Part shown: positions 29,125-63,434 of the stretch, one piece after another
How positions within the stretch are numbered: position 1 is the stretch's first letter
Layout of the letters: every line of letters starts with the position of its first letter
Translations under genes and position numbers: made by a program
NCBI GenBank assembly: GCA_949751835.1
Contig: CATKHK010000016.1
Span: 492,522-556,521 of the forward strand
Reading direction: 5' to 3'
Length of the DNA stretch: 64,000 nt
From: Blepharisma japonicum
Lineage: Eukaryota; Ciliophora; Heterotrichea; Heterotrichida; Blepharismidae
The notes under the pieces: generated by a model
What the model was told of the DNA's origin: nothing
Seen by the model: the letters and a program-made list of their open reading frames with translations, nothing else
The model's database searches: none

Positions 29125-30561
29125 ATGTCAGCTATCGATAACTATCGAATCTTAGGCCATTTGGGTCACGGTACTTATGGCCAGGTTAAGCGTAAAATCT
29201 AAATAGTTGCTGAGCATCTTTCGAGCTCTACAAACGTCGCCATCAAGGTCCTAAAAAAGCGAGTCATCCTCGAGAAAAATATGGTCTCCAAGGTAAAACG
29301 AGAAATTCAAGTACTCAAGCTGTTCCATCATCCTCATATAATCCGACTCTATGAAGTGATAGAAACCCCAAAAAGCCTTGTCCTAGTTCTCGAGTATCTC
29401 CCAGGAGGCGAGCTTTACAATTTGATAGATCGGTATGGGAAACTCCATGAAGATCAGGCACGCAACTATATTCAGCAGATCCTTTCTGGGCTTGCTTATT
29501 GTCACTCTCACAGAGTGGCCCACAGAGATATAAAGCCAGAAAACCTCCTGCTTGATATTCATGGGAACGTTAAAATAGCCGACTTTGGACTTGCAAACCT
29601 GATGCCTGATGGCAACTTCTTGAAAACATCCTGTGGGACACCCAATTATGTTGCCCCTGAAGTCATTTCGGGGTATCGGTATTGTGGGCCTGAAGCCGAT
29701 GTCTGGAGTACTGGCGTTGTCTTGTTTGCCTTGTTGGCAGGGAGTTTACCGTTTGACGATGTGTCGATCCCTGCGCTGTTCACAAAGATTAAAAGTGGGA
29801 ACTTCGTGATGCCTTATCATTTTTCAGAGCCTGTGAAAGACTTGATTATGAGGATGCTGACCCCAGACCCGATCGCAAGAATAACGATACAGCAGATACA
29901 AAGCCATCCGTGGTTGACTCATAAGGTGCCAAAACACCTGAGCTCAAATGTGTACATTAAAAGAAAATATAAAATTTCAGAACCACTTATAGATGAAGAA
30001 ATCCTTCAACAAGCCCTGGTTCTTACTCGCAAACAAGGGATGGACAAGAAATTTGCCCGTGACAGAATTTTGAAGCGAAAAAGTGACAGCATAGTTGTAT
30101 GCTACGAAATTTTGTTAGATCAAAAGTTATCAGGTAGTACCTCAAAGTATAATATTACTGCTAATCATACCCCTCTATTTAAACAAGAGTCGTGTGAGGT
30201 TTCCACTGCTGAGTTGTCCACGATCGCATCATCAAGGTGTGACTCCTCCGAGATCGTACCAGCAGTTGAGGATCCTAATAACTGGGCGTTTGGGATAAAG
30301 TCAACCCTTGAACCTTCTCAGTTTTTGTTGAATCTCCAATTAGCGCTTCGTGATGCTGGCTTGGAGTGAAAGTCGACATCAGCCTTTAGTCTGAATGTCA
30401 AATCAGTTGATTGTAGGAAAGACCTGAAAATGCGAGCAGACATTTACAGGCACGAGGGGTCGTTTGTTGTTGATTTCAAACTTAGGAATGGAGTAGTCAT
30501 GATATTCCTTGACGTTATCCAGCAAGTCTATAGTCAGTTGAAAGGGCTTGCTTGCAAATAA
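29125..30561 (+). CDS. SNF1/AMPK catalytic alpha subunit
   Basis: 473 residues after removing one 15-nt intron (29192-29206). Exon 1 encodes MSAIDNYRILGHLGHGTYGQ (Gly-rich loop); the intron contains an in-frame TAA and TAG. The kinase domain (about 8-260) has VAIKVLKK, HRDIKPENLL, DFGLAN and the activation loop KTSCGTPNYVAPE, whose Thr is the LKB1-type phosphosite in SNF1/AMPK. A helical UBA/autoinhibitory-like region follows (DEEILQQALVLTRKQGMD). A TGA read as Trp (GLEWKSTSAFSL) leads into the KA1-like C-terminal domain (DFKLRNGVVMIFLDVIQQVY), ending TAA. It is the central energy-stress kinase; partner beta and gamma subunits are not in the window. Confidence 0.88.
29192..29206 (+). other. 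15-nt spliceosomal intron in the SNF1-like kinase
   Basis: GTAAAATCTAAATAG. Removing it joins VK to LAEHLSSSTNVAIKVL in frame and restores the kinase N-lobe. Left in, it gives TAA and TAG stops. Canonical GT...AG at the 15-nt length typical of heterotrich ciliates. Confidence 0.92.
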
Positions 30562-31079: not shown

Positions 31080-31152
31080 CGCCCACTGGGGGGCTCGAAC
31101 CCCCGACCACCAGCTTAAGAGGCTGGCGCTCTACCGACTGAGCTAAACGGGC
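31080..31152 (-). tRNA. tRNA-Lys (anticodon CTT)
   Basis: 73 nt, full cloverleaf: acceptor GCCCGTT/AGTGGGC (with G-T wobbles), D stem GCTC/GAGC, anticodon stem CCAGC/GCTGG with loop CTCTTAA (anticodon CTT, codon AAG), T stem GGGGG/CCCCC with TTCGAGC loop. No intron. CCA is not encoded, as is normal in eukaryotes. Closely related to the next tRNA. Confidence 0.96.
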
Positions 31153-31210: not shown

Positions 31211-31283
31211 CGCCCACCGGGGGGCTCGAACCCCCGACCACCAGCTTAAAAGGCTGGCGCTCTACCGACTGAGCTAGACGGGC
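31211..31283 (-). tRNA. tRNA-Lys (anticodon TTT)
   Basis: 73 nt cloverleaf with acceptor GCCCGTC/GGTGGGC, anticodon loop CTTTTAA (anticodon TTT, codon AAA). Differs from the upstream copy at only three bases: the wobble base of the anticodon and both members of the 7:66 acceptor pair (T-A there, C-G here). The two are tandem, 58 bp apart, on the same strand. Confidence 0.96.
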
Positions 31284-31355
31284 TGGTATCTCTATATATC
31301 CTCTTCTTAAATACCTATTTTAAAAGAATCTAGCTTTAATTCTTAATTAAAATCC

Positions 31356-33579
31356 TTACTGGCAGCATTTTTTGCAGCTCTCTTGACAGGTTTGCTGGCA
31401 CCATTCTCTACACTTTTGTTGGCATAATTCTCTGCAGCATTCTTTATCAGCTTCTGCACAGTTTTTAACGCATTCTTCACAGCACTTTTCTAAGCATGAT
31501 TCTAAGCAATGCTTTAGGCAGGCTTCTTGGCAAACTTCTTTTCCTTCTTTACAGCAGGCTTGACAGTACTCTTCACAGCACTTTTTGCAGAATTCTTTGC
31601 AAAGCTGTTCACAGGATTTCTCGCAGCATTCTTTGCTTTCTTCAGAGCAGCATTCCTTTCTTTCCTCACAACAATTCTCTTGGCATACTTGTTGGCACCA
31701 TTCTCTGCATTTCGCTTCGCATATTTCTCTGCAGCATTCTTTGCCAGATTCTTCGCAGCTTTTTACGCATTCTTCACAGCATCTTTCTAAGCATGATTCT
31801 AAGCAATGCTTTAGGCAGGCTTCTTGGCTAACTTCTTCTCCTTCTTTGCAGCAGTTTTGGCAAAATTCTTCACAGCATTTCTTGCAGAGCTCTTTGCAAA
31901 GCTGTTCACATGATTTCTCGCAGCATTCTTTGCTTTCTTCAGAGCAGCATTCCTTTCTTTCCTTACAACAATTCTCTTGGCATACTTGTTGGCACCATTC
32001 TCTGCATTTCGCTTCGCATATTTCTCTGCAGCATTCTTTGCCAGATTCTTCGCAGCTTTTTACGCATTCTTCACAGCATCTTTCTAAGCATNNNNNNNNN
32101 NNNNNNNNNNNNNNNNNNNNNNNNNNNNNNNNNNNNNNNNNNNNNNNNNNNNNNNNNNNNNNNNNNNNNNNNNNNNNNNNNNNNNNNNNNNGATTCTAAG
32201 CAATGCTTTAGGCAGGCTTCTTGGCTAACTTCTTCTCCTTCTTTGCAGCAGTTTTGGCAAAATTCTTCACAGCATTTCTTGCAGAACTCTTTGCAAAGCT
32301 GTTCACATGATTTCTCACAGCATTCTTTGCTTTCTTCAGAGCAGCAAGGGTGTGCTAGTTCAGCAGCCAAGACTTCAGCCAATTTGTTGAAAAATTCTTC
32401 AGTATTAAGCCAATGTTCTCTTCTCATTTGGTTTCCATGGACACATAAAGCTAAATCTTTAGTCATAAATCCAAGCTCGATTGTCTTTATAGTTGCTGCT
32501 TCTAAGGTTTCGCAGAAATGTTTAAGTTCTTCATTCCCATCAAGCTTAGCTCTGTGCAGCAGTCCACGAGTCCAAGCAAAAATGGAAGCTACTGGGTTTG
32601 TAGACGTCTCTTCTCCTTTTTGCCACTGTCTATAATGTCTTGTAACAGTACCATGAGCAGCTTCAGCTTCAATAGCGCCTGAAGGGGAGACCAAGACGCT
32701 GGTCATAAGTCCTAATGAGCCATATCCTTGAGCTACGACGTCACTTTGAACGTCCCCGTCGTAATTCTTGCAAGCCCACACAAATCCACCATTGCTCTTG
32801 ATAGCTTGGGCGACCATGTCATCAATAAGCCTATGTTCATAGTAAATCCCTTTTTCTTGGAATTTTGGTTTATATTCTCTGTCATAAATTCCTTGGAAAA
32901 TATCTTTGAATCTTCCGTCATATTTCTTTAGAATGGTGTTTTTGGTTGACAAGAAGAGTGGGTAGCATCTGTCTAAGGCATATTCAAAGGACGATCTTGC
33001 GAATTCTTCAATTGATTCGTCAGTGTTGTACATTGCCAGCCCAATTCCAGCCCCTTGGAAAGCGAAAACTTCATATCTTTGGCCTTCAGAGCCGTCATTA
33101 GGAGTAAAGACAACTTCGTACTTGCCAGCTCTGTCCACTGTGAAGTCAGTAGCTCTGTATTGGTCAGCGTGGGCATGTCTTCCAATGATAATTGGTTTGT
33201 TCCAGCCTGGGACAATTCTTGGGACATTCTTGCAAATGATTGGCTCCCTAAAGACAGTTCCTCTAAGCTCATTTCTAATAGTTCCATTAGGAGATTTCCA
33301 CATCTTTTTGAGGTTGAACTCTTCTACTCTGGCTTCATCTGGAGTGATTGTGGCGCATTTTATTCCAACTTTACAGTCGAGAATAGCTTTTGCAGAGTCT
33401 AAAGTTACTTGATCATTTGTGGCATCACGGTTCTGGATCGAAAGGTCAAAGTATTGGATTGGAAGGTCGAGGTATGGGAAAATTAGCTTGTCTTTAATAA
33501 GCTGCCAAATAATTCTAGTCATTTCATCCCCATCAAGCTCTGCAACAGGATTTGCTACTCTAATCTTTTGAGTTGCCAT
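31356..33579 (-). CDS. IDH: NADP-dependent isocitrate dehydrogenase with a giant cysteine-rich repeat tail
   Basis: Residues 1-411 are a complete NADP-IDH of cytosolic type (start [20 protein letters not shown], no targeting peptide). Recognisable motifs include [31 protein letters not shown], the substrate/metal region [18 protein letters not shown] and the NADP region [13 protein letters not shown] and [15 protein letters not shown]. It converts isocitrate to 2-oxoglutarate with NADPH production. After AAELAHP comes a 296-residue tail made of three 99/99/98-residue units, each with about 27 cysteines, ending CKKCCQ and TAA. A 100-N assembly gap (32092-32191) lies inside unit 1. With the Ns removed the frame is continuous (708 codons). 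No known IDH carries such a tail to my knowledge. An upstream in-frame TTG is not needed as start. Confidence 0.88.
31359..32346 (-). repeat. Cysteine-rich tandem repeat array (297-bp unit, at least 3 copies)
   Basis: Unit 1 is 31950-32346 (297 bp plus the 100-N gap), unit 2 is 31653-31949, unit 3 is 31359-31652 (294 bp, more diverged). Units 1 and 2 are almost identical at DNA level. Landmarks (start of [10 protein letters not shown]) are exactly 297 bp apart. Each unit encodes CC and C-x3-C spacings ([19 protein letters not shown]), which on a helix would form a cysteine stripe, mixed with Glu and Lys. In-frame coding continues through all visible copies. Confidence 0.95.
32092..32191. other. 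Assembly gap of 100 N inside the repeat array
   Basis: Exactly 100 Ns, a usual placeholder for an unknown length. The flanks (TTTCTAAGCAT before, GATTCTAAGCAATGC after) abut exactly as in the intact copy at about 31785-31811, so the gap falls between two identical points of the repeat. The true gap may be zero or any whole number of 297-bp units. Confidence 0.95.
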
Positions 33580-33848
33580 GCCAAAAATTATTATAAGCAA
33601 TCATGGCCACTAATTTTAGCCACATCAAATATCCAGTGAAAAAGACTGCAAGGGCAATAAACATTTTTAAGTTAGAAAATGGCTTCGAGAATAATCGTCA
33701 AAGCAGATAATTTTTTTTTAACTTTTCAGAAATAAAGACTTTGGTATATAATTAAGCAGCAATATTTGCCAAAAAATTATTATAATAAGTCTATATAAAG
33801 AAATAATTATTTTTATTTTCTTTAATTATAAACTTTATTAAATCAATA

Positions 33849-34088
33849 ATGGAAACTGATGACAATTCTCCTTGGTACGGAATTTTAATAGGCCTTATCC
33901 TTATTTTAATTATGCTAGCCCCAAGCTATCTATACCCTCCACTTCCCACACACAAATCCCTACGAGACGACTACATTAAAGCAATGATCGCCCTCGCTGA
34001 AAAAAATATTAGCGAAAAAGAAGCAAGGAAACTTGAGAAAAAGAAAAAAGCAAGCGAAGAAGCAGCTGGGGAATACCAGAAACTCTAA
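33849..34088 (+). CDS. Small single-pass membrane protein, unknown
   Basis: 79 residues: a short acidic lumenal or extracellular start (METDDNSPWYG), one strong hydrophobic helix (about residues 11-29, ILIGLILILIMLAPSYLYPP), then a charged Lys/Glu/Ala helix (EKEARKLEKKKKASEEAAGE). No TGA codons. The topology suggests a tail in the cytosol. No family recognised. The reading frame is well used (GC higher than flanks) and ends TAA, so I accept it as a gene although small. Confidence 0.6.
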   Translation: METDDNSPWYGILIGLILILIMLAPSYLYPPLPTHKSLRDDYIKAMIALAEKNISEKEARKLEKKKKASEEAAGEYQKL

Positions 34089-34149
34089 TAACCATATATA
34101 AATAATACAAGATTTTAAATTTAATCAGAAGGGTTACACTTCCAGATAA

Positions 34150-35008
34150 ATGGAAATCAATTCTGAGTTCACCTCAATGGAGCCAACTACATCAAGCTGA
34201 ATGGAAGAGTGCATCCCATATATCAAGGACAAATAAATGTCTTCACGAAATTTTAATCCCTGGCTCTCACAATTCAGGAACTTACAGATACACATGCTGC
34301 ATAGCAGCTCCCTGGGTTCGAAACCAATCAGCTGACTTCTATGAGCAGCTGGAGAGAGGCATTCGGTATTTTGACTGCCGACTGAGGTACATTCCTAAAG
34401 ATTCTTACGATATTTTTAAATTTTCCCATGAAAGCTGGGTCTGCGATGTGTGCGTGTTCGATCTGTTTGAATCTATAGAAAACTTTTTAAGCCTACACAA
34501 CAAGGAAATCATAATTTTGGATTTCAGCCACTTCAGGAAGTTTACAGAAAGCGCATATGTCGAGCTGAACTTGAGATTTGAAAAAATAAAAGAAATTGTA
34601 ATTACGAAGAATTATATTAAAAATACGATAGGAGAAATTTTGAAAACAAATAGAAGAATTGTGATGCTGAGTAGTGAAGAAAGGTTTGGGAATGGGGAGT
34701 ATGCGAAATCGCTTAATCATTATGATGAGTGGCCAAATACTGATAGGCCAGAAAATTTAAAAAAGTTCATTCAAAAGCAAATTTGTAAAGAAACGAATAA
34801 GCTTAGACTGTTTCAATGCATATTATCTACTCAAAGAATTGCACATAATTCGTATTTGGCTAATTATTTGAGGCCCTATTTGGAGGACTGGATTGAAAAT
34901 GAATGATGGGATAAATTGAATATAATTTTTACAGATTTCAGTGTCAATGATAAGCTTGTCGAAATAGCTATTAAAGCAAATAAAAAGCGAGGATTACAAA
35001 TTTGTTAA
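34150..35008 (+). CDS. PLC-X (phosphatidylinositol-specific phospholipase C X-domain) protein
   Basis: About 280 residues. PLC-X signs: EILIPGSHNSGTY (catalytic His), LERGIRYFDCRLRY, FSHESWVC, and a C-terminal NEIIILD-like strand (HNKEIIILDFSHF). It resembles the short PLCXD proteins rather than multidomain PI-PLC. It ends in NEWWDKLNIIF (one TGA read as Trp) and then TAA. The 5' end is uncertain: the catalytic frame has no ATG after its upstream TAA. The only nearby ATG (34150) is in another frame and would join through a 16-nt candidate intron at 34167-34182, giving MEINSDQLHQAEWKS. The enzyme would cleave phosphoinositides or act as a lipid-binding relic. Confidence 0.72.
34167..34182 (+). 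other. Possible 16-nt intron in the PLC-X gene
   Basis: GTTCACCTCAATGGAG. Removing it links the ATG at 34150 to the PLC-X frame. 16 nt is an accepted minor intron size in Blepharisma-type genomes. The 5' site GTTC is weaker than the GTA of the other introns, so this is tentative. Confidence 0.4.
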
Positions 35009-35523: not shown

Positions 35524-36369
35524 CTAAATCTTCTTGAACTCCAAGCTCTTGATCTGGTCTTTGGTATGCTTAAGGTGCTCTTGAAGAGTCATCATTTTTT
35601 CATACAGGTCCTTTATTTTCAGCCTCTTCTCTTCTTCTGACAGCGCCGACATTTCTTTCGCTGCAACCATAAGTTTTTCCAGCGACAGCGCTTCTTCTTT
35701 GGGCTTTGCCTTGGCCTTGCTGGGCTCTATAAGAAAACTATCAATAATCTGTTCTTCCTTCCAAATTTTCTCAGTCACTGGCTCTGGTTTATCCGGAGTT
35801 GTGACGTCAGACACTATATCGCTGACTGGCTCATTTTGTTTTTGGATCCTTTTTTTGATGGTTCCATAAAATCTGTTTTTTACAGCATCAGCTGGTCTAC
35901 CTTTTAAACAAGCGGTTATCTTTTTCCAGTTTCCGCCGTAGTTTTTATACAATTTTAATATAAGCTCATCCTCCTCTGGTGTCCATCTGGTTTTAATTAC
36001 GTTCGGGTCATGCTTATTTGCCCATCTTCGTTGGACGGCCTGAGCATTTTTATCGGGAAAATAGTTACTGATAATGTCCCAGCGCTTCTTGTATTTTTTT
36101 GTAAGTTGGCTTAGTAGTTCGTCCTCTTCTGGAGTCCAGACTGTTTTGCCTCTACGAGATTGCGAGCACTGGGTGGAGAGTTCGACATCTCTTACTTCAT
36201 TATATATGGGCTCAGGGGAGAGAGCCAAAGGGTTCAGTTGAAAACTGCAGCTTATAGTTTCATTTGGACAATCAAATTCTTCTAAATCAGAAGGGACAGA
36301 AAAGTCGAGGTTGGGGAGTCCCATATCCCAGTGATCACTTGCACGCTCCAAAGCACTATTCCATGACAT
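35524..36369 (-). CDS. Two-repeat MYB-type DNA-binding protein
   Basis: 281 residues. Two SANT/MYB repeats at about 77-175: GKTVWTPEEDELLSQLTKKY with RWDIISNYFP and AVQRRW, then TRWTPEEDELILKLYKNYGG with NWKKITACLKGRPADAVKNR. The N-terminus is acidic (possible activation region) and the C-terminus has a helical coiled-coil-like segment (EEKRLKIKDLYEKMMTLQEH). No TGA. Predicted nuclear transcription factor of the R2R3 class or a SNAPc/telomere-binding relative; targets unknown. Confidence 0.85.
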   Translation of the reverse strand: MSWNSALERASDHWDMGLPNLDFSVPSDLEEFDCPNETISCSFQLNPLALSPEPIYNEVRDVELSTQCSQSRRGKTVWTPEEDELLSQLTKKYKKRWDIISNYFPDKNAQAVQRRWANKHDPNVIKTRWTPEEDELILKLYKNYGGNWKKITACLKGRPADAVKNRFYGTIKKRIQKQNEPVSDIVSDVTTPDKPEPVTEKIWKEEQIIDSFLIEPSKAKAKPKEEALSLEKLMVAAKEMSALSEEEKRLKIKDLYEKMMTLQEHLKHTKDQIKSLEFKKI

Positions 36370-36885
36370 TGGCTTATTTTATATATAATTGGTTCCAAGT
36401 TAAAAAGAAATGGCTTTCCTCAGGCATAAATTTTAAATCGAAAAGACACACAAAGATAATTAGCGAATAAATTTAAATTCTGATTGAACATATTTTAAGA
36501 ATATCGATGGTGAAATTTAGAAAATGTCGTCAGCAGCTGAGGAATTAAACAATAATGTTGAATAATTCTATTAAGGAATAAAGTGAAATAAAACTGGCGC
36601 CTTGCGATTTTGAGAAAAGGTAGCTTTACTAGAAGCATTTTCTTCTAGTAGGATGGTCTTAGAAAATATGCAAAGATTTTGAAAAAATGAGCAGATGCAG
36701 GTGTGCAGGTTATGCGATCACTTTTTATATAAATTGCTAAATAATTATTCCTAGACTATTTTTTACTATTTTCTCTAATAAGGAGCTTAAAAATAAAATA
36801 ATATTCTCCATCCTTTTAGTAGATTTACTCAGAATAAAATAAAGGGGAAAATTTAAATAGATTTTTATAAGAGGAGAAAAGCTGC
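36370..36885. other. Intergenic, no feature seen
   Basis: About 515 bp of AT-rich DNA upstream of the MYB gene and downstream of the next minus-strand gene. Nothing recognised. Confidence 0.6.
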
Positions 36886-40453: not shown

Positions 40454-41366
40454 ATTAAATTATAAAAATACTTATACAAAGAAAGTATGCTGCTTAGTTA
40501 ATTGCAAGGTAAGTGTTATTTTTGCTTTGTTGTTTTGGATTACTTGCTTAAAAACAAATATTGATTTTTTGACTTTGGAAAACCTCAACTTGACTTTTTC
40601 TTCCTTGATTATTACGGAAATGTGATAAAATCTCATTATATGCAGTTTCATTAATATCAAACTTCATGAGTTGATTTTTTAAGAAAGCTTTGGTCTTAAA
40701 GATCTTGAAACAGCTGTGATGAGATTTTTCCAATCAGAAATAAAGTAAAGTTTTTCCAAAATAAAATGTATTGGGCTATCACCTAAAACTAGAAAAAGTT
40801 ACATTTTAAAGTTTAAGAACATTTCTTAATGAAAATTATCTTAATAAGTTGAAACTCGATTGCTTGTGTCATTTTCTGCAAATAGTTTTTAGACCTTTTG
40901 GAGATTATGGTCCCTTATTTCATACAATATTTAATTTTGCAAGACCTAATCTCAATATAACTCTTTTTAATTAGCAAAGCTATATTCTACTAGCGCAAAA
41001 AATATATTAGAACCTTTCTATTTGGCATTGCGCTGAATTGATAAAAAGACTTCATAGATTTTATAATTTTTCAGTTAATAAAATTTAGGTAGTTTATAAT
41101 TAAGTAATGCTTTATTAATAGGTTTTCGTATAGCTCATTTTTTTAATTTTAATATTTGTTCTACATTATTTGGCATTGTGCACATGAAATGCCCTTTAAA
41201 TATATTTTAATAATAATCGTTAAAATCTCTCTCATTATCTCAGCCTGGATTACATCAAAACAGTAGTCTAGATAATTTTATAAATATCCCAAAATTTAAA
41301 AATTAGGCAAAAAAGCATTGATTCTCTATAAACTAAGATTTCAATTCAAAATGGGCAAGTCTAATA
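40454..41366. other. Intergenic, no feature seen
   Basis: About 0.9 kb, AT-rich, containing the promoters of CFAP70 and of the secreted cysteine-rich gene. Only short unconvincing open frames. No RNA gene seen. Confidence 0.55.
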
Positions 41367-41882
41367 ATGAATAAAATCCTTGTGACGGTATTTTTAACTT
41401 TATCAGTCCAATCATACACCATCCCACCCACAGACAACCCAGCAGAGGAGCCAGTCTATGATCGGCAAACTAATGAGTTTCAAAATAATTGTAGTGTCGA
41501 CCAGGATTGTCCAGTGATAAACTGCATCAGAGCACCTTGCCCAACCTACGTGTGTCGTAATGAACACTGCGTAATAAATGTTCCAAAAGAAGAATGCATA
41601 GTAGACCAAGACTGCCCAGTGATTAATTGCATTAGAGCTCCTTGTCCATCTTACGCATGCAGAAATAATCACTGCGAATTCCAGCTACCTCAGCAAGATT
41701 GCATAGTTGCAGGCTGCTCCGGACAGCTCTGTGTTGGCTCTCACGAAAATGGCACTTCTACATGTGAATGGAAAGACTCATATTCCTGTTATGCAGAATT
41801 CGGAAATTGTGCTTTTATTAATAGACAGTGCCAATGGGAGCCTACTGAGAAGCTTCTGAACTGCATTCGGGATAGAAGCTAA
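41367..41882 (+). CDS. Secreted cysteine-rich protein with two 8-Cys-type repeats
   Basis: 171 residues. Signal peptide MNKILVTVFLTLSVQSYT, then two near-identical repeats with DQDCPVINCIRAPCP, each followed by a C-RN-HC end. A third cysteine-rich segment follows (CIVAGCSGQLCVGSHENG, then CEWKDSYSCYAEFGNC and CQWEP). The third part matches my memory of the bacterial eight-cysteine-cluster pattern (C-x-x-x-G-C-S-G-Q-x-C). No TGA codons. Predicted extracellular or vesicular disulfide-rich protein; function unknown. Transfer from bacteria is possible but not shown. Confidence 0.72.
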   Translation: MNKILVTVFLTLSVQSYTIPPTDNPAEEPVYDRQTNEFQNNCSVDQDCPVINCIRAPCPTYVCRNEHCVINVPKEECIVDQDCPVINCIRAPCPSYACRNNHCEFQLPQQDCIVAGCSGQLCVGSHENGTSTCEWKDSYSCYAEFGNCAFINRQCQWEPTEKLLNCIRDRS

Positions 41883-60627: not shown

Positions 60628-63434
60628 TTATAGGTTCAAGGCCTTTCTTCATATGGTGTGCTGTATATTGAAGATGTTCCATTCAATTTGCTCAGTCTCT
60701 TCGGATCTCAAAAATTTAATAAGTGCTTCTCCAAACTTCTGTTCGCTTGCGAAATAGTTGCTGATCCAAGTCAATGCATGATTTATGCATATGAAAATTT
60801 CATCTCGAATGCCTGATGGCTTTGGAGAACCATTAGGCGTGCTCCTTGGAGTTCTTTTGGAGTCGAATTGGGGGCATCGCTTGGTGTGGAGGACCTAGTG
60901 GCCCTTGGAGTTTGTCTTGGAGTTGCTTTTGGGGTGGTTTTTGGAGTGCTTTTTTGGAGTAAGGTTTTTGTCCCGAACCGACAGTTTTTAAGCTGGTTGT
61001 AAGAGTGCCTCATTTTGACCAAAAATAGAGCTAATCCATGACTAAAAGCACTCGGACTCTCAACTAATAAATTGTAATAAAACAAATAATATTCATCATC
61101 GTCTTTATACTTTATTAAGGAATCTATGATTTTCTGCTTATTTCTATCTTGGAAGATTTGGATCCCATATTTTCTTTCTAAAAATTCATCGATAAACTTA
61201 TTCATTGGCATTAGTTTTTTGCCAGCTTTCAAATGTCTCATTTCCAGCTCGTATCGATTGTGAATCAACTCCTCTAAAATTTATTTAGAAGATGCGATTG
61301 AATTATTTTGAGCGTTGAAATTTTTCTTTTCTTTGGGGTAAAAGTGGAAGAGTCTGCAGTAATGCTAAGGTCTCTGTAAATCAATAGCTTAGATCTTTCG
61401 TGGAGAATTTGTTCAGATTCCTTATCAAAAATTCTGAGTGTTTTTCGTCATATTGATGCAGAGAAGTGTCAAGCTCATTTTTCAAATACATTAAAAGCAA
61501 AACTAATTCTGTCAAGCGACTCTGCATGTATAGCTAAAGCATTTTTCTTTTTTTTCGAATGACTCAAGCTCATATTTCCCCATGTTGCGATACTCTTTAA
61601 GACTTTCAGCATATTGCTCTTTAAACCTCAATAAATTTTCCTTGATATCTTCAGCTGCAGCTTCGAAGTTTAATTTGCTTTGATTAGCATACCAATCAGT
61701 ATCAATTTGTTTTTCGAGTTCATATATTTTATTTGGTCGATTAGATTTTTCATTTCTTTTGTGAGAAAATCATTGACAAAATCTTGAACTTGCAGTAAAT
61801 TGTCTCTAATAGCATTTATATCTACTTTTAGTTGGCCAAAAACAGAGTTTTTGACTCCATTTACGTTTTTGATTGCAGCAATAACAATGCTGAATTTTCC
61901 GATGATTGAAATCTTTTCTTTTTCGAAGACTTCCTTACAACTCTGCAGCTCAGAGTCTTTGACTTTCTCGAAGTATTGGGCAACTTTGTCAATCTCTTCT
62001 TGGTGTTTAAATTCATTTGCCTCTGCTAGGTTTTGTGTGACTGAATTTCATTTTCAAGAAGAAGTCTTATATCCGAAATTTCCTTTTCAAGTGCTTTTTT
62101 TCTGCTATTTAACTGATCAATCTGAGAATCTTTTTCATTTATCTCTTCATTCATCTTCTTTGTACGTCCTTCAAAAATTCGATTGCTCTCTGCTAAGACT
62201 TTGTTCGACTGAATTTCATTTTCAAGATGAAGTTTCACAGCCGAAATTTCCTTTTCAAGTGCTTTATTTCCATTATTTAGCTGATCAATCTGAATCTTTT
62301 TCATTTATCTCTTCATTCATCTTCTTTGTGTGTCCTTCAAAAATTCGATTGTTCTTTGTTAGAATTTTGTTCGACTGAATTTCATTTTCAAGATGAAGTT
62401 TCACAGCTGAAATTTCCTTTTCAAGTGCGTTATTTCCATTATTTAGCTGATCAATCTGAGAATCTTTTTCATTTATCTTTTCTTTCAGCTTCATTATGCA
62501 TCCTTCAAAAATTCGATTGTCCTCCTCCGATAATACCAAGCTGCCTTGTAATTCTTTTACTTTTGCATCAAGTTGTGCTACTTGCAATATATAATATTCA
62601 TTTTCTTTTGATGAATCTAACAACTTTTCCTCTAATTCTTCTGTTCTGAGAGCAGCGCTAAAAATTTTGATTGAAGTATTGAATTTTCCTCTTTAGAAAT
62701 GCGTATTTGCTCTTCAAGTGACTGCACTTTTTTTTTGAGATTATTAATTTCATCATTTAAATCTTTTTCTTACTTTCTAAGCTGTTTATTCGATTGTTGA
62801 GTTCTTCAATTTTCATTTGCAAACTTGAACTTCTGTCAGTTACAGCTAAGAGCCTTTTCTCTAAATCACTACTTTTTAGACTCAATCTTTGAGTTTCTGA
62901 TTTTAAATCAAAATTTTCATTCATCGTAGCACTTAATTTGCTTTTTAATTTATCAGCCTGAGATGCTAATTCTTCATTCTTTTCATTTACTACTTCCAAG
63001 CCATGCTTCTTCTTTTTTATATCATCTTCAAGCAGCAGAGATTTTAGTGATTCGTTCTTGAGTAGTTTCTGAAGCTGATTGTTTTTCAATGGATTTTTCT
63101 TTAAGCTTTTCAAAATCAGAGGCTAAGAAATACAAGTCTTGCAGCTTTCTTTTATTGAGGTGGCCTACAAGTAAATTTGCTTTTTCCTCAACAGAGTAAT
63201 TAGTCCTTGCCCACACCATCTCTCTAGCATTACTGCACATCTTTCTGAGTTCAAAATTAGGTCTTTTAGATAATGCTGCACTTCGTGCTGATCCACAACA
63301 AGATTTATTGCTCTGTCTTTTATATTTTCAGGGGAATAAAGATATTCTATTTTCTGAGGTAGGCTTCTTTGGGCTGATTCTAGTTTATTAATCACTTCTA
63401 GTGCTTTTACAATATTGGTCGGTAGGTCCCACAT
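60628..63434 (-). pseudogene. Long coiled-coil protein locus broken by about ten small indels
   Basis: Following coding character across frames gives a protein of roughly 930 residues: MWDLPTNIVKALEVINKLES, helical domain to about 110, long coiled coil with three 56-residue repeats (NRIFEGHTKKMNEEINEKDS type, around 62020-62560), a middle helical part (LKVDINAIRDNLLQVQDFVN), FERKYGIQIFQDRN-like segment, a TPKTTPKATPRQTPRATRSS stretch and a compact end (ALTWISNYFASEQKFGEALI, NLY stop TAA at 60628). Frame changes, plus-strand positions approximate: 63240, 63095, 62766, 62675, 62291 (2 bp, non-homopolymer), 62031, 61725, 61555, 61276, 60857. Nearly all lie in A/T runs, and no TAA or TAG occurs inside the stitched frame. 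It could be a recent pseudogene or an uncorrected assembly. No family recognised. Confidence 0.6.
62010..62560 (-). repeat. 168-bp (56-residue) coiled-coil repeat, three copies
   Basis: The string TCCTTCAAAAATTCGATTG recurs at 62167, 62333 and about 62501 (spacings 166 and 168 bp). Each unit encodes NRIFEG, an INEKDSQIDQLN block and LEKEISAVKLHLENEIQ. The 166-bp spacing reflects a 2-bp loss in one copy. Confidence 0.85.

Follow-up and report, generated by a model that had tools for sequence, protein, structure and literature searches.

The window analysed here is a 64,000-nt stretch of DNA corresponding to positions 492522-556521 of contig C16, in a genome of 45.2 Mb (224 contigs) that was also searched. 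A minus-strand gene occupies window positions 33579-31356, with its ATG at 33579-33577, and encodes an isocitrate dehydrogenase (IDH) whose reading frame continues beyond the enzyme into a tail rich in cysteine. The gene and its surroundings contain the following features:

35527..36378, minus strand: Myb-domain gene (Pfam PF00249, E 2e-26), upstream of the IDH gene and syntenic with its counterpart beside the closest paralogue (83% at the amino acid level over 282)
32347..33579, minus strand: NADP-isocitrate dehydrogenase core, 411 codons (TIGR00127, PF00180, PDB 1lwd)
32192..32346, minus strand: Cys-rich tail, initial 155 nt (start of unit 0, the unit in which the gap lies), in frame with the core and with no gap between them, as read from contiguous sequence and the open reading frame
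32092..32191, no strand: stretch of 100 N interrupting the tail, the sole N run in the window, with flanks adjacent in repeat phase
31950..32091, minus strand: rest of unit 0, 99% identical to the corresponding part of unit 1
31653..31949, minus strand: tail unit 1, 99 codons, 27 Cys
31359..31652, minus strand: tail unit 2, the last, 98 codons, followed by the stop codon TAA (31358-31356); its divergence from unit 1 appears to be under selection
31284..31355, minus strand: 3′ flank resembling that of the tail-less paralogue (alignment)
31211..31283, minus strand: tRNA-Lys (TTT), syntenic with the paralogue
31080..31152, minus strand: tRNA-Lys (CTT), syntenic with the paralogue

Judging from its sequence, the core is a complete eukaryotic NADP-isocitrate dehydrogenase with predicted NADP-linked activity. 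Residues 4-409 align to positions 1-408 of the 409 in the NCBIfam model TIGR00127 with a score of 715.1 bits, and this full-length match above the curated cut-off (397.15) is that of a eukaryotic-type NADP-dependent IDH. In addition, Pfam PF00180 is matched with an E-value of 2.3e-61, the top PDB match is 1lwd (E 1.2e-193), and substrate-site motifs, which we take to be those of the active site, are present at residues 96-279. A complete NADP-IDH core of 411 residues had been proposed in a preliminary description of this DNA, whose coordinates proved to be right. The protein begins at the core, with no N-terminal extension ahead of it, and comprises 707 residues including 90 Cys if the gap is closed at zero length.

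While the whole core is shared with the TIGR00127 family, the window protein has in addition at least 296 aa at its C-terminus; this tail contains 83 Cys (28.0%, gap flanks abutted), and its units start 99 aa apart. The preliminary description had given at least 296 residues with about 27 percent Cys in 99-residue units, a figure with which these counts agree, and the in-frame fusion that it claimed is confirmed at the DNA level in contiguous sequence. Its statement that it knew of no such IDH in the literature is in line with a search of open papers, none of which reports a protein of this kind, judged by titles and the beginnings of abstracts. In the main text of the Blepharisma genome paper, the word "isocitrate" is absent and the two "cysteine-rich" passages concern PiggyBac proteins.

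The 100-N gap, on which the preliminary description was silent, splits the tail, and its literal length would shift the frame and leave two open reading frames (ORFs) in different frames. However, in the array the 25 nt leading up to the gap are found again at offsets 272 and 569 and the 25 nt that follow it at offsets 0 and 297, which means that the two flanks are exactly adjacent in the 297-bp array and in matching phase. Therefore, the N run is most likely a placeholder, either for no sequence at all or for n x 297 bp; the frame would be kept either way, and the full tail would most likely measure 296 + 99n aa, with n depending on the content of the N run.

The presence of a scaffold gap inside the tail raises the question of whether the tail is missing from the mature protein, either through misassembly at the gap, because the repeats belong to a separate gene, or because they are spliced out. 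The core-tail junction (32347/32346) lies outside the gap, and the tail sequence on the core side of the gap is contiguous with the core, that on the far side with a 3′ flank and tRNA genes shared with the paralogue. A separate gene, by which the preliminary description considered that its reading could fall, is unlikely: there is no Met in the sequenced tail, which could hardly be a gene of its own for that reason, and the sequenced part is bounded by the core on one side and by the paralogue-shared 3′ flank on the other. As for splicing, most Blepharisma introns have a length of 15-16 bp according to a passage of PMC9942806, and GT..AG strings of 15-16 nt occur eight times in the abutted gene, four of them in the tail at codons 472, 571 and 670 (one per unit) and at codon 642. 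The other four are found in the core, which nevertheless fits the IDH model over its length, and the frame conserved between units is the unspliced one. A 15-nt GT..AG intron is present elsewhere in the window (29192-29206), in a protein kinase gene whose frame is joined by its excision. That intron is AT-rich and ends in TAG, unlike the strings that recur once per unit. Overall, we regard an artefact of this kind as improbable.

A PF00180 profile search of the genome returned at least eight matches, including seven full-length genes (the window gene among them) and one fragment, L012. The C-termini of all seven full-length Iso_dh genes were read, and the tail was found in the window gene only. 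The paralogue closest to it, L009 (contig C140), is 91.7% identical in the core (377/411) and ends with LAAPASS followed by a stop at the very point of the junction, without a tail. The two loci are syntenic, each having a Myb gene, the IDH gene and then tRNA-Lys TTT and tRNA-Lys CTT, and the flank after the L009 stop resembles the flank after the tail stop, so the tail separates the core from a flank common to both loci. The synteny is imperfect, as none of the C140 ORFs compared matched either of two window ORFs (33807-34088 and 34106-34906) that lie between the Myb and IDH genes. Two more distant NADP-IDHs, L010 and L011 (60.7% and 71.7% identity, respectively), are also tail-less, and because of this the sequences are most simply read as a gain of the tail by the window copy after duplication, with loss from L009 being a less simple but conceivable alternative.

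Several other observations were made around these loci. L012 (C89:173270-173521) is a partial IDH frame beside a copy of the RING-type neighbour of L011 (contig C101), and the partial frame and shared neighbour suggest that a further duplication took place here and that its IDH copy has decayed. Two copies within locus L013 on C140 (24106-24498 and 26085-26477) match window positions 41358-41876 with equal score and identity; together with a third related ORF beside them, they may represent a small repeated gene family common to both syntenic regions. The ORF at window 34106-34906 has no Pfam match at E<=0.001 and contains SHNSG and RYFDCR motifs, which in our view resemble the X domain of phosphoinositide phospholipase C.

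The cysteines of the tail favour certain spacings. Within the 296 aa there are 50 C-x3-C, 21 CC and 10 C-x2-C motifs, with no C-x-C and no CCC. The favoured Cys-Cys lags are 4, 8, 12, 16 and 20, the lag of 4 being represented by 50 pairs compared with 23 expected, and pairs at lags 2, 10 and 18 do not occur at all. The same periodicity is visible in the DNA, where the self-identity of unit 1 is 0.53, 0.52 and 0.54 at lags of 12, 24 and 36 nt, respectively, and only 0.13-0.33 at lags 3, 4, 6, 9, 15 and 18. When Cys positions were held fixed and Cys-Cys pairs excluded, identity still exceeded that of shuffled sequences at codon lags 4 (P 0.0005), 8 (P 0.014) and 12 (0/2000 shuffles), which shows that the 12-nt periodicity extends beyond the cysteines; lag 11 gave P 0.03. 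A unit can be read as tetrapeptides with slips and has the appearance of a tetrapeptide (12-nt) array that has decayed, and we infer from these patterns that growth of the 12-nt unit came first and amplification of the 297-bp unit followed.

Such a hierarchical tandem structure would also be consistent with near-neutral growth, in which 12-nt slippage, harmless at a free C-terminus, produced a functionless extension, and the occurrence of the tail in only one of the seven full-length Iso_dh genes read points the same way. The comparison between units argues otherwise. Tail units 1 and 2 differ with dN 0.118 and dS 0.79 (dN/dS about 0.15) and units 0 and 2 with dN 0.109 and dS 0.87 (unit 0 read across the gap), while three sites distinguish unit 0 from unit 1; for the pair of IDH cores (411 codons), dN is 0.044 and dS 1.28, a dS value that is high and rough. 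Unit 2 has 49 nucleotide differences from unit 1 over 98 codons and no stop; it retains 26 of the 27 Cys of unit 1, six of those through synonymous change, and has three Cys of its own. In 5000 neutral simulations, which randomly placed transitions and transversions in the observed numbers, without gene conversion or mutation bias, the mean number of amino acid differences was 33.6 (minimum 24) compared with the 20 observed, and a mean of 9.5 Cys (minimum 2) were lost compared with the single loss observed. Thus, with a dN/dS of about 0.15 at a dS of about 0.8 and Cys retention far above this neutral expectation (gene conversion and mutation bias left out of the model), a functionless tail appears unlikely.

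The units look to be evolving under purifying selection in which the Cys frame is kept. Reading the two other forward frames as coding gave 31 amino acid differences each and 3-9 stops (standard code), and the best antisense frame had 25 differences with 0 and 2 stops, whereas the Cys frame had 20 and none (standard code). Antisense or shifted ORFs that run across the array, of up to 267 aa from stop to stop or 241 aa from an ATG under code 4, were judged to be by-products.

With respect to structure, AlphaFold predicted a helical fold for the 244-aa stretch after the gap when no alignment was used (one sequence; pLDDT 80.4, pTM 0.43) and three helices for unit 1 when the other tail pieces served as the alignment (four sequences; pLDDT 80.7, pTM 0.67). 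C-x3-C and CC spacing on a predicted helix, as reported in the preliminary description, is therefore recovered in both motif counts and models. The further suggestion of a cysteine stripe of the kind found in Csps, the copper storage proteins, was not supported: on a helical wheel of 100 degrees per residue, seven of the eight predicted helices had no significant Cys one-sidedness compared with shuffles, and one reached P 0.036. The cysteines are not significantly one-sided in most helices because each i+4 step turns by 40 degrees, which makes them wind around the helix. Foldseek searches of the PDB yielded no hit at E<=0.001 among 9 rows for the 244-aa model and 42 rows for the unit model. 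At the top of the PDB list for the unit model stood the Csp 6ek9, which was not significant (E 1.2, TM 0.25, rmsd 13.4). In BFVD, none of 94 rows for the unit model reached E<=0.001, the best being a fragment of viral B602L (E 0.24, TM 0.58).

Sequence searches gave a similar picture, and no metal-binding family was matched by the tail in Pfam, NCBIfam, the PDB or Foldseek. The Csp profile DUF326 (PF03860), named in the preliminary description as a possible relative, returned no row for the tail at E<=1 or for the units at E<=10, and a DUF326 profile search of the genome found none, with a positive Bacillus subtilis control. The Pfam rows obtained for the tail (FAM25 with E 0.006, COG4_C, Sec6 and TryThrA_C) were below cut-offs and judged compositional, as was one NCBIfam row (E 0.0039, 16 bits versus a cut-off of 540). 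A PDB sequence search with the 244-aa stretch gave three rows at E<=10, the best being a designed helical repeat protein (E 0.099), and a search with the unit profile gave seven, the best being Huntingtin interacting protein B (E 0.024); none of these is metal-storing. No tail relative was detected in a plasmid collection of 72,556 records (tblastn, E<=0.01). Peptide-pattern searches, which reach close relatives only, yielded 11 matching stretches in the genome_contigs collection, none of which is a tail relative, and no match in viral_contigs. Searches of the tail's own genome with the tail protein, with a shorter piece (E<=10) and with unit DNA returned at least four matches each (best candidates scored, simple repeats skipped), every one of which lies in the IDH gene.

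Two known types of thiol-rich protein offer the closest comparisons. Like Csps, the tail has many C-x3-C motifs (50) on predicted helices. However, Csps are described in a passage of PMC5519932 as four-helix bundles with Cys-lined cores, whereas the model of the tail unit has three helices, and a unit contains 27 Cys in 99 aa compared with 13 and 18 Cys per monomer reported there for MtCsp1 and MtCsp3. In addition, the tail differs from Csps in being fused to an enzyme, in having Cys that do not occupy one face, and in lacking both DUF326 and a significant fold match. Compared with metallothioneins (MTs), its Cys share of 28% is inside the standard range of 16-32% given in PMC4862169, and modular tandem growth is a feature in common with ciliate and fungal MTs in the passages available from PMC4862169 and PMC4755600. 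The same passages present MTs as free-standing proteins with an abundance of C-x-C, CC or CCC clusters, whereas the tail is fused to IDH, predicted to be helical, and has 21 CC with neither C-x-C nor CCC. The longest MT in the relevant part of PMC4755600 (2016) has 257 aa and 57 Cys, compared with at least 296 aa and 83 Cys in the tail. Membership of the Csp or MT families is not claimed for the tail, because defining features of these families were looked for and were absent.

The reading that we tentatively put first, while giving it somewhat less than even chances, is that the tail serves as a cytosolic thiolate buffer or store for soft metals, most likely Cu(I) or Zn, on an NADPH-producing enzyme. 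A cytosolic NADP-IDH would have undergone segmental duplication, after which one copy would have gained a C-terminal tail through in-frame tandem expansion of a 12-nt unit coding for a C-x-x-x tetrapeptide and, later, amplification of a unit of 297 bp. Most of the 83 or more tail cysteines would remain thiols in the reducing cytosol and give the tail a high capacity to buffer or store these soft metals, with each C-x3-C pair on a helix providing a two-sulphur site; NADPH from the attached IDH, through the glutathione or thioredoxin systems, would help to keep the tail thiols reduced. Expression, metal binding, the redox link and the order of the amplification steps are what we infer at present, as is the cytosolic place, since the protein starts at the IDH core and has no N-terminal extension. 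Metal-thiolate storage is ranked first because of the reducing conditions in the cytosol, the large number of thiols and their conservation, and the tendency of Cu(I) in Csp3 to prefer C-x3-C motifs. The latter tendency was noted for Csp3 crystals in a passage of PMC5519932, which also states that the reducing cytosol helps to keep thiols. Points against this reading are the distribution of Cys away from a single helical face, the lack of a family match and of C-x-C or CCC motifs, and structural models derived from one and four sequences.

Selection on the cysteines would likewise be expected under a structural or a redox role. In the latter case, the tail would be a metal-free thiol redox store or sensor, whose cysteines are oxidised and then re-reduced by NADPH from the same chain, or whose disulphides regulate the IDH. 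Cysteines kept by selection, a core that is NADPH-forming by family, and the 21 CC pairs and 10 C-x2-C motifs are all compatible with this proposal, which comes second in our ranking as a possible but rather unlikely explanation, given that no thioredoxin-like or other redox family was matched in Pfam or NCBIfam. Alternatively, the tail might act in assembly or anchoring, with Cys cross-links or helix packing leading to oligomers or to attachment to the cortex, granules or cyst wall. The predicted helicity of the repeats and the winding of cysteines around the helix, by which they could face several neighbours, would suit such a role; on the other hand, no extension suggestive of secretion precedes the IDH core, and synthesis of isocitrate dehydrogenase was reduced during encystment in another ciliate according to a passage of PMC8891572. 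We consider this role unlikely, on a par with near-neutral growth and behind the redox store, and an artefact ranks last.

A more far-reaching proposal, which we regard as doubtful, is a bifunctional protein of a new type in which an NADPH-making enzyme carries its own metal-thiolate or thiol reservoir, built from scratch after duplication by growth of a C-x-x-x array; its helical i+4 Cys lattice would be a way of binding metal or thiols distinct from those of MTs and Csps. IDHs of the TIGR00127-type family are dimers; if the window protein is dimeric as well, the tails of one IDH dimer would together hold 166 or more cysteines. Binding of metal or storage of thiols by the tail would mean that a single chain links the supply of NADPH with thiol capacity and, if true, would represent a route to such proteins other than that of MTs or Csps. 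The tail-less syntenic twin offers a before-and-after view of a large domain that was, most simply, born on a central metabolic enzyme.

Some features of the genome bear on its genetic code and host. TGA occurs once in L010 (contig C76) at a position aligned with Trp in other IDHs, and twice in an SNF2-like gene that follows the IDH gene of L006 (contig C3), at two sites where Trp is presumably expected. The genome therefore probably reads TGA as Trp, and the tail frame is identical under either code. The repeat CCCTAACA, in three copies, has 168 occurrences in the genome, many of them at contig ends, compared with 0 for a backward control. Both TGA as Trp and the CCCTAACA repeat agree with what is reported for Blepharisma stoltei in a passage of PMC9942806, and a heterotrich would fit as the host on account of these two features. 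Finally, a second tandem array is present in the window at 62009-62519, with a period of 166 bp, 3.1 copies and 88% matches.
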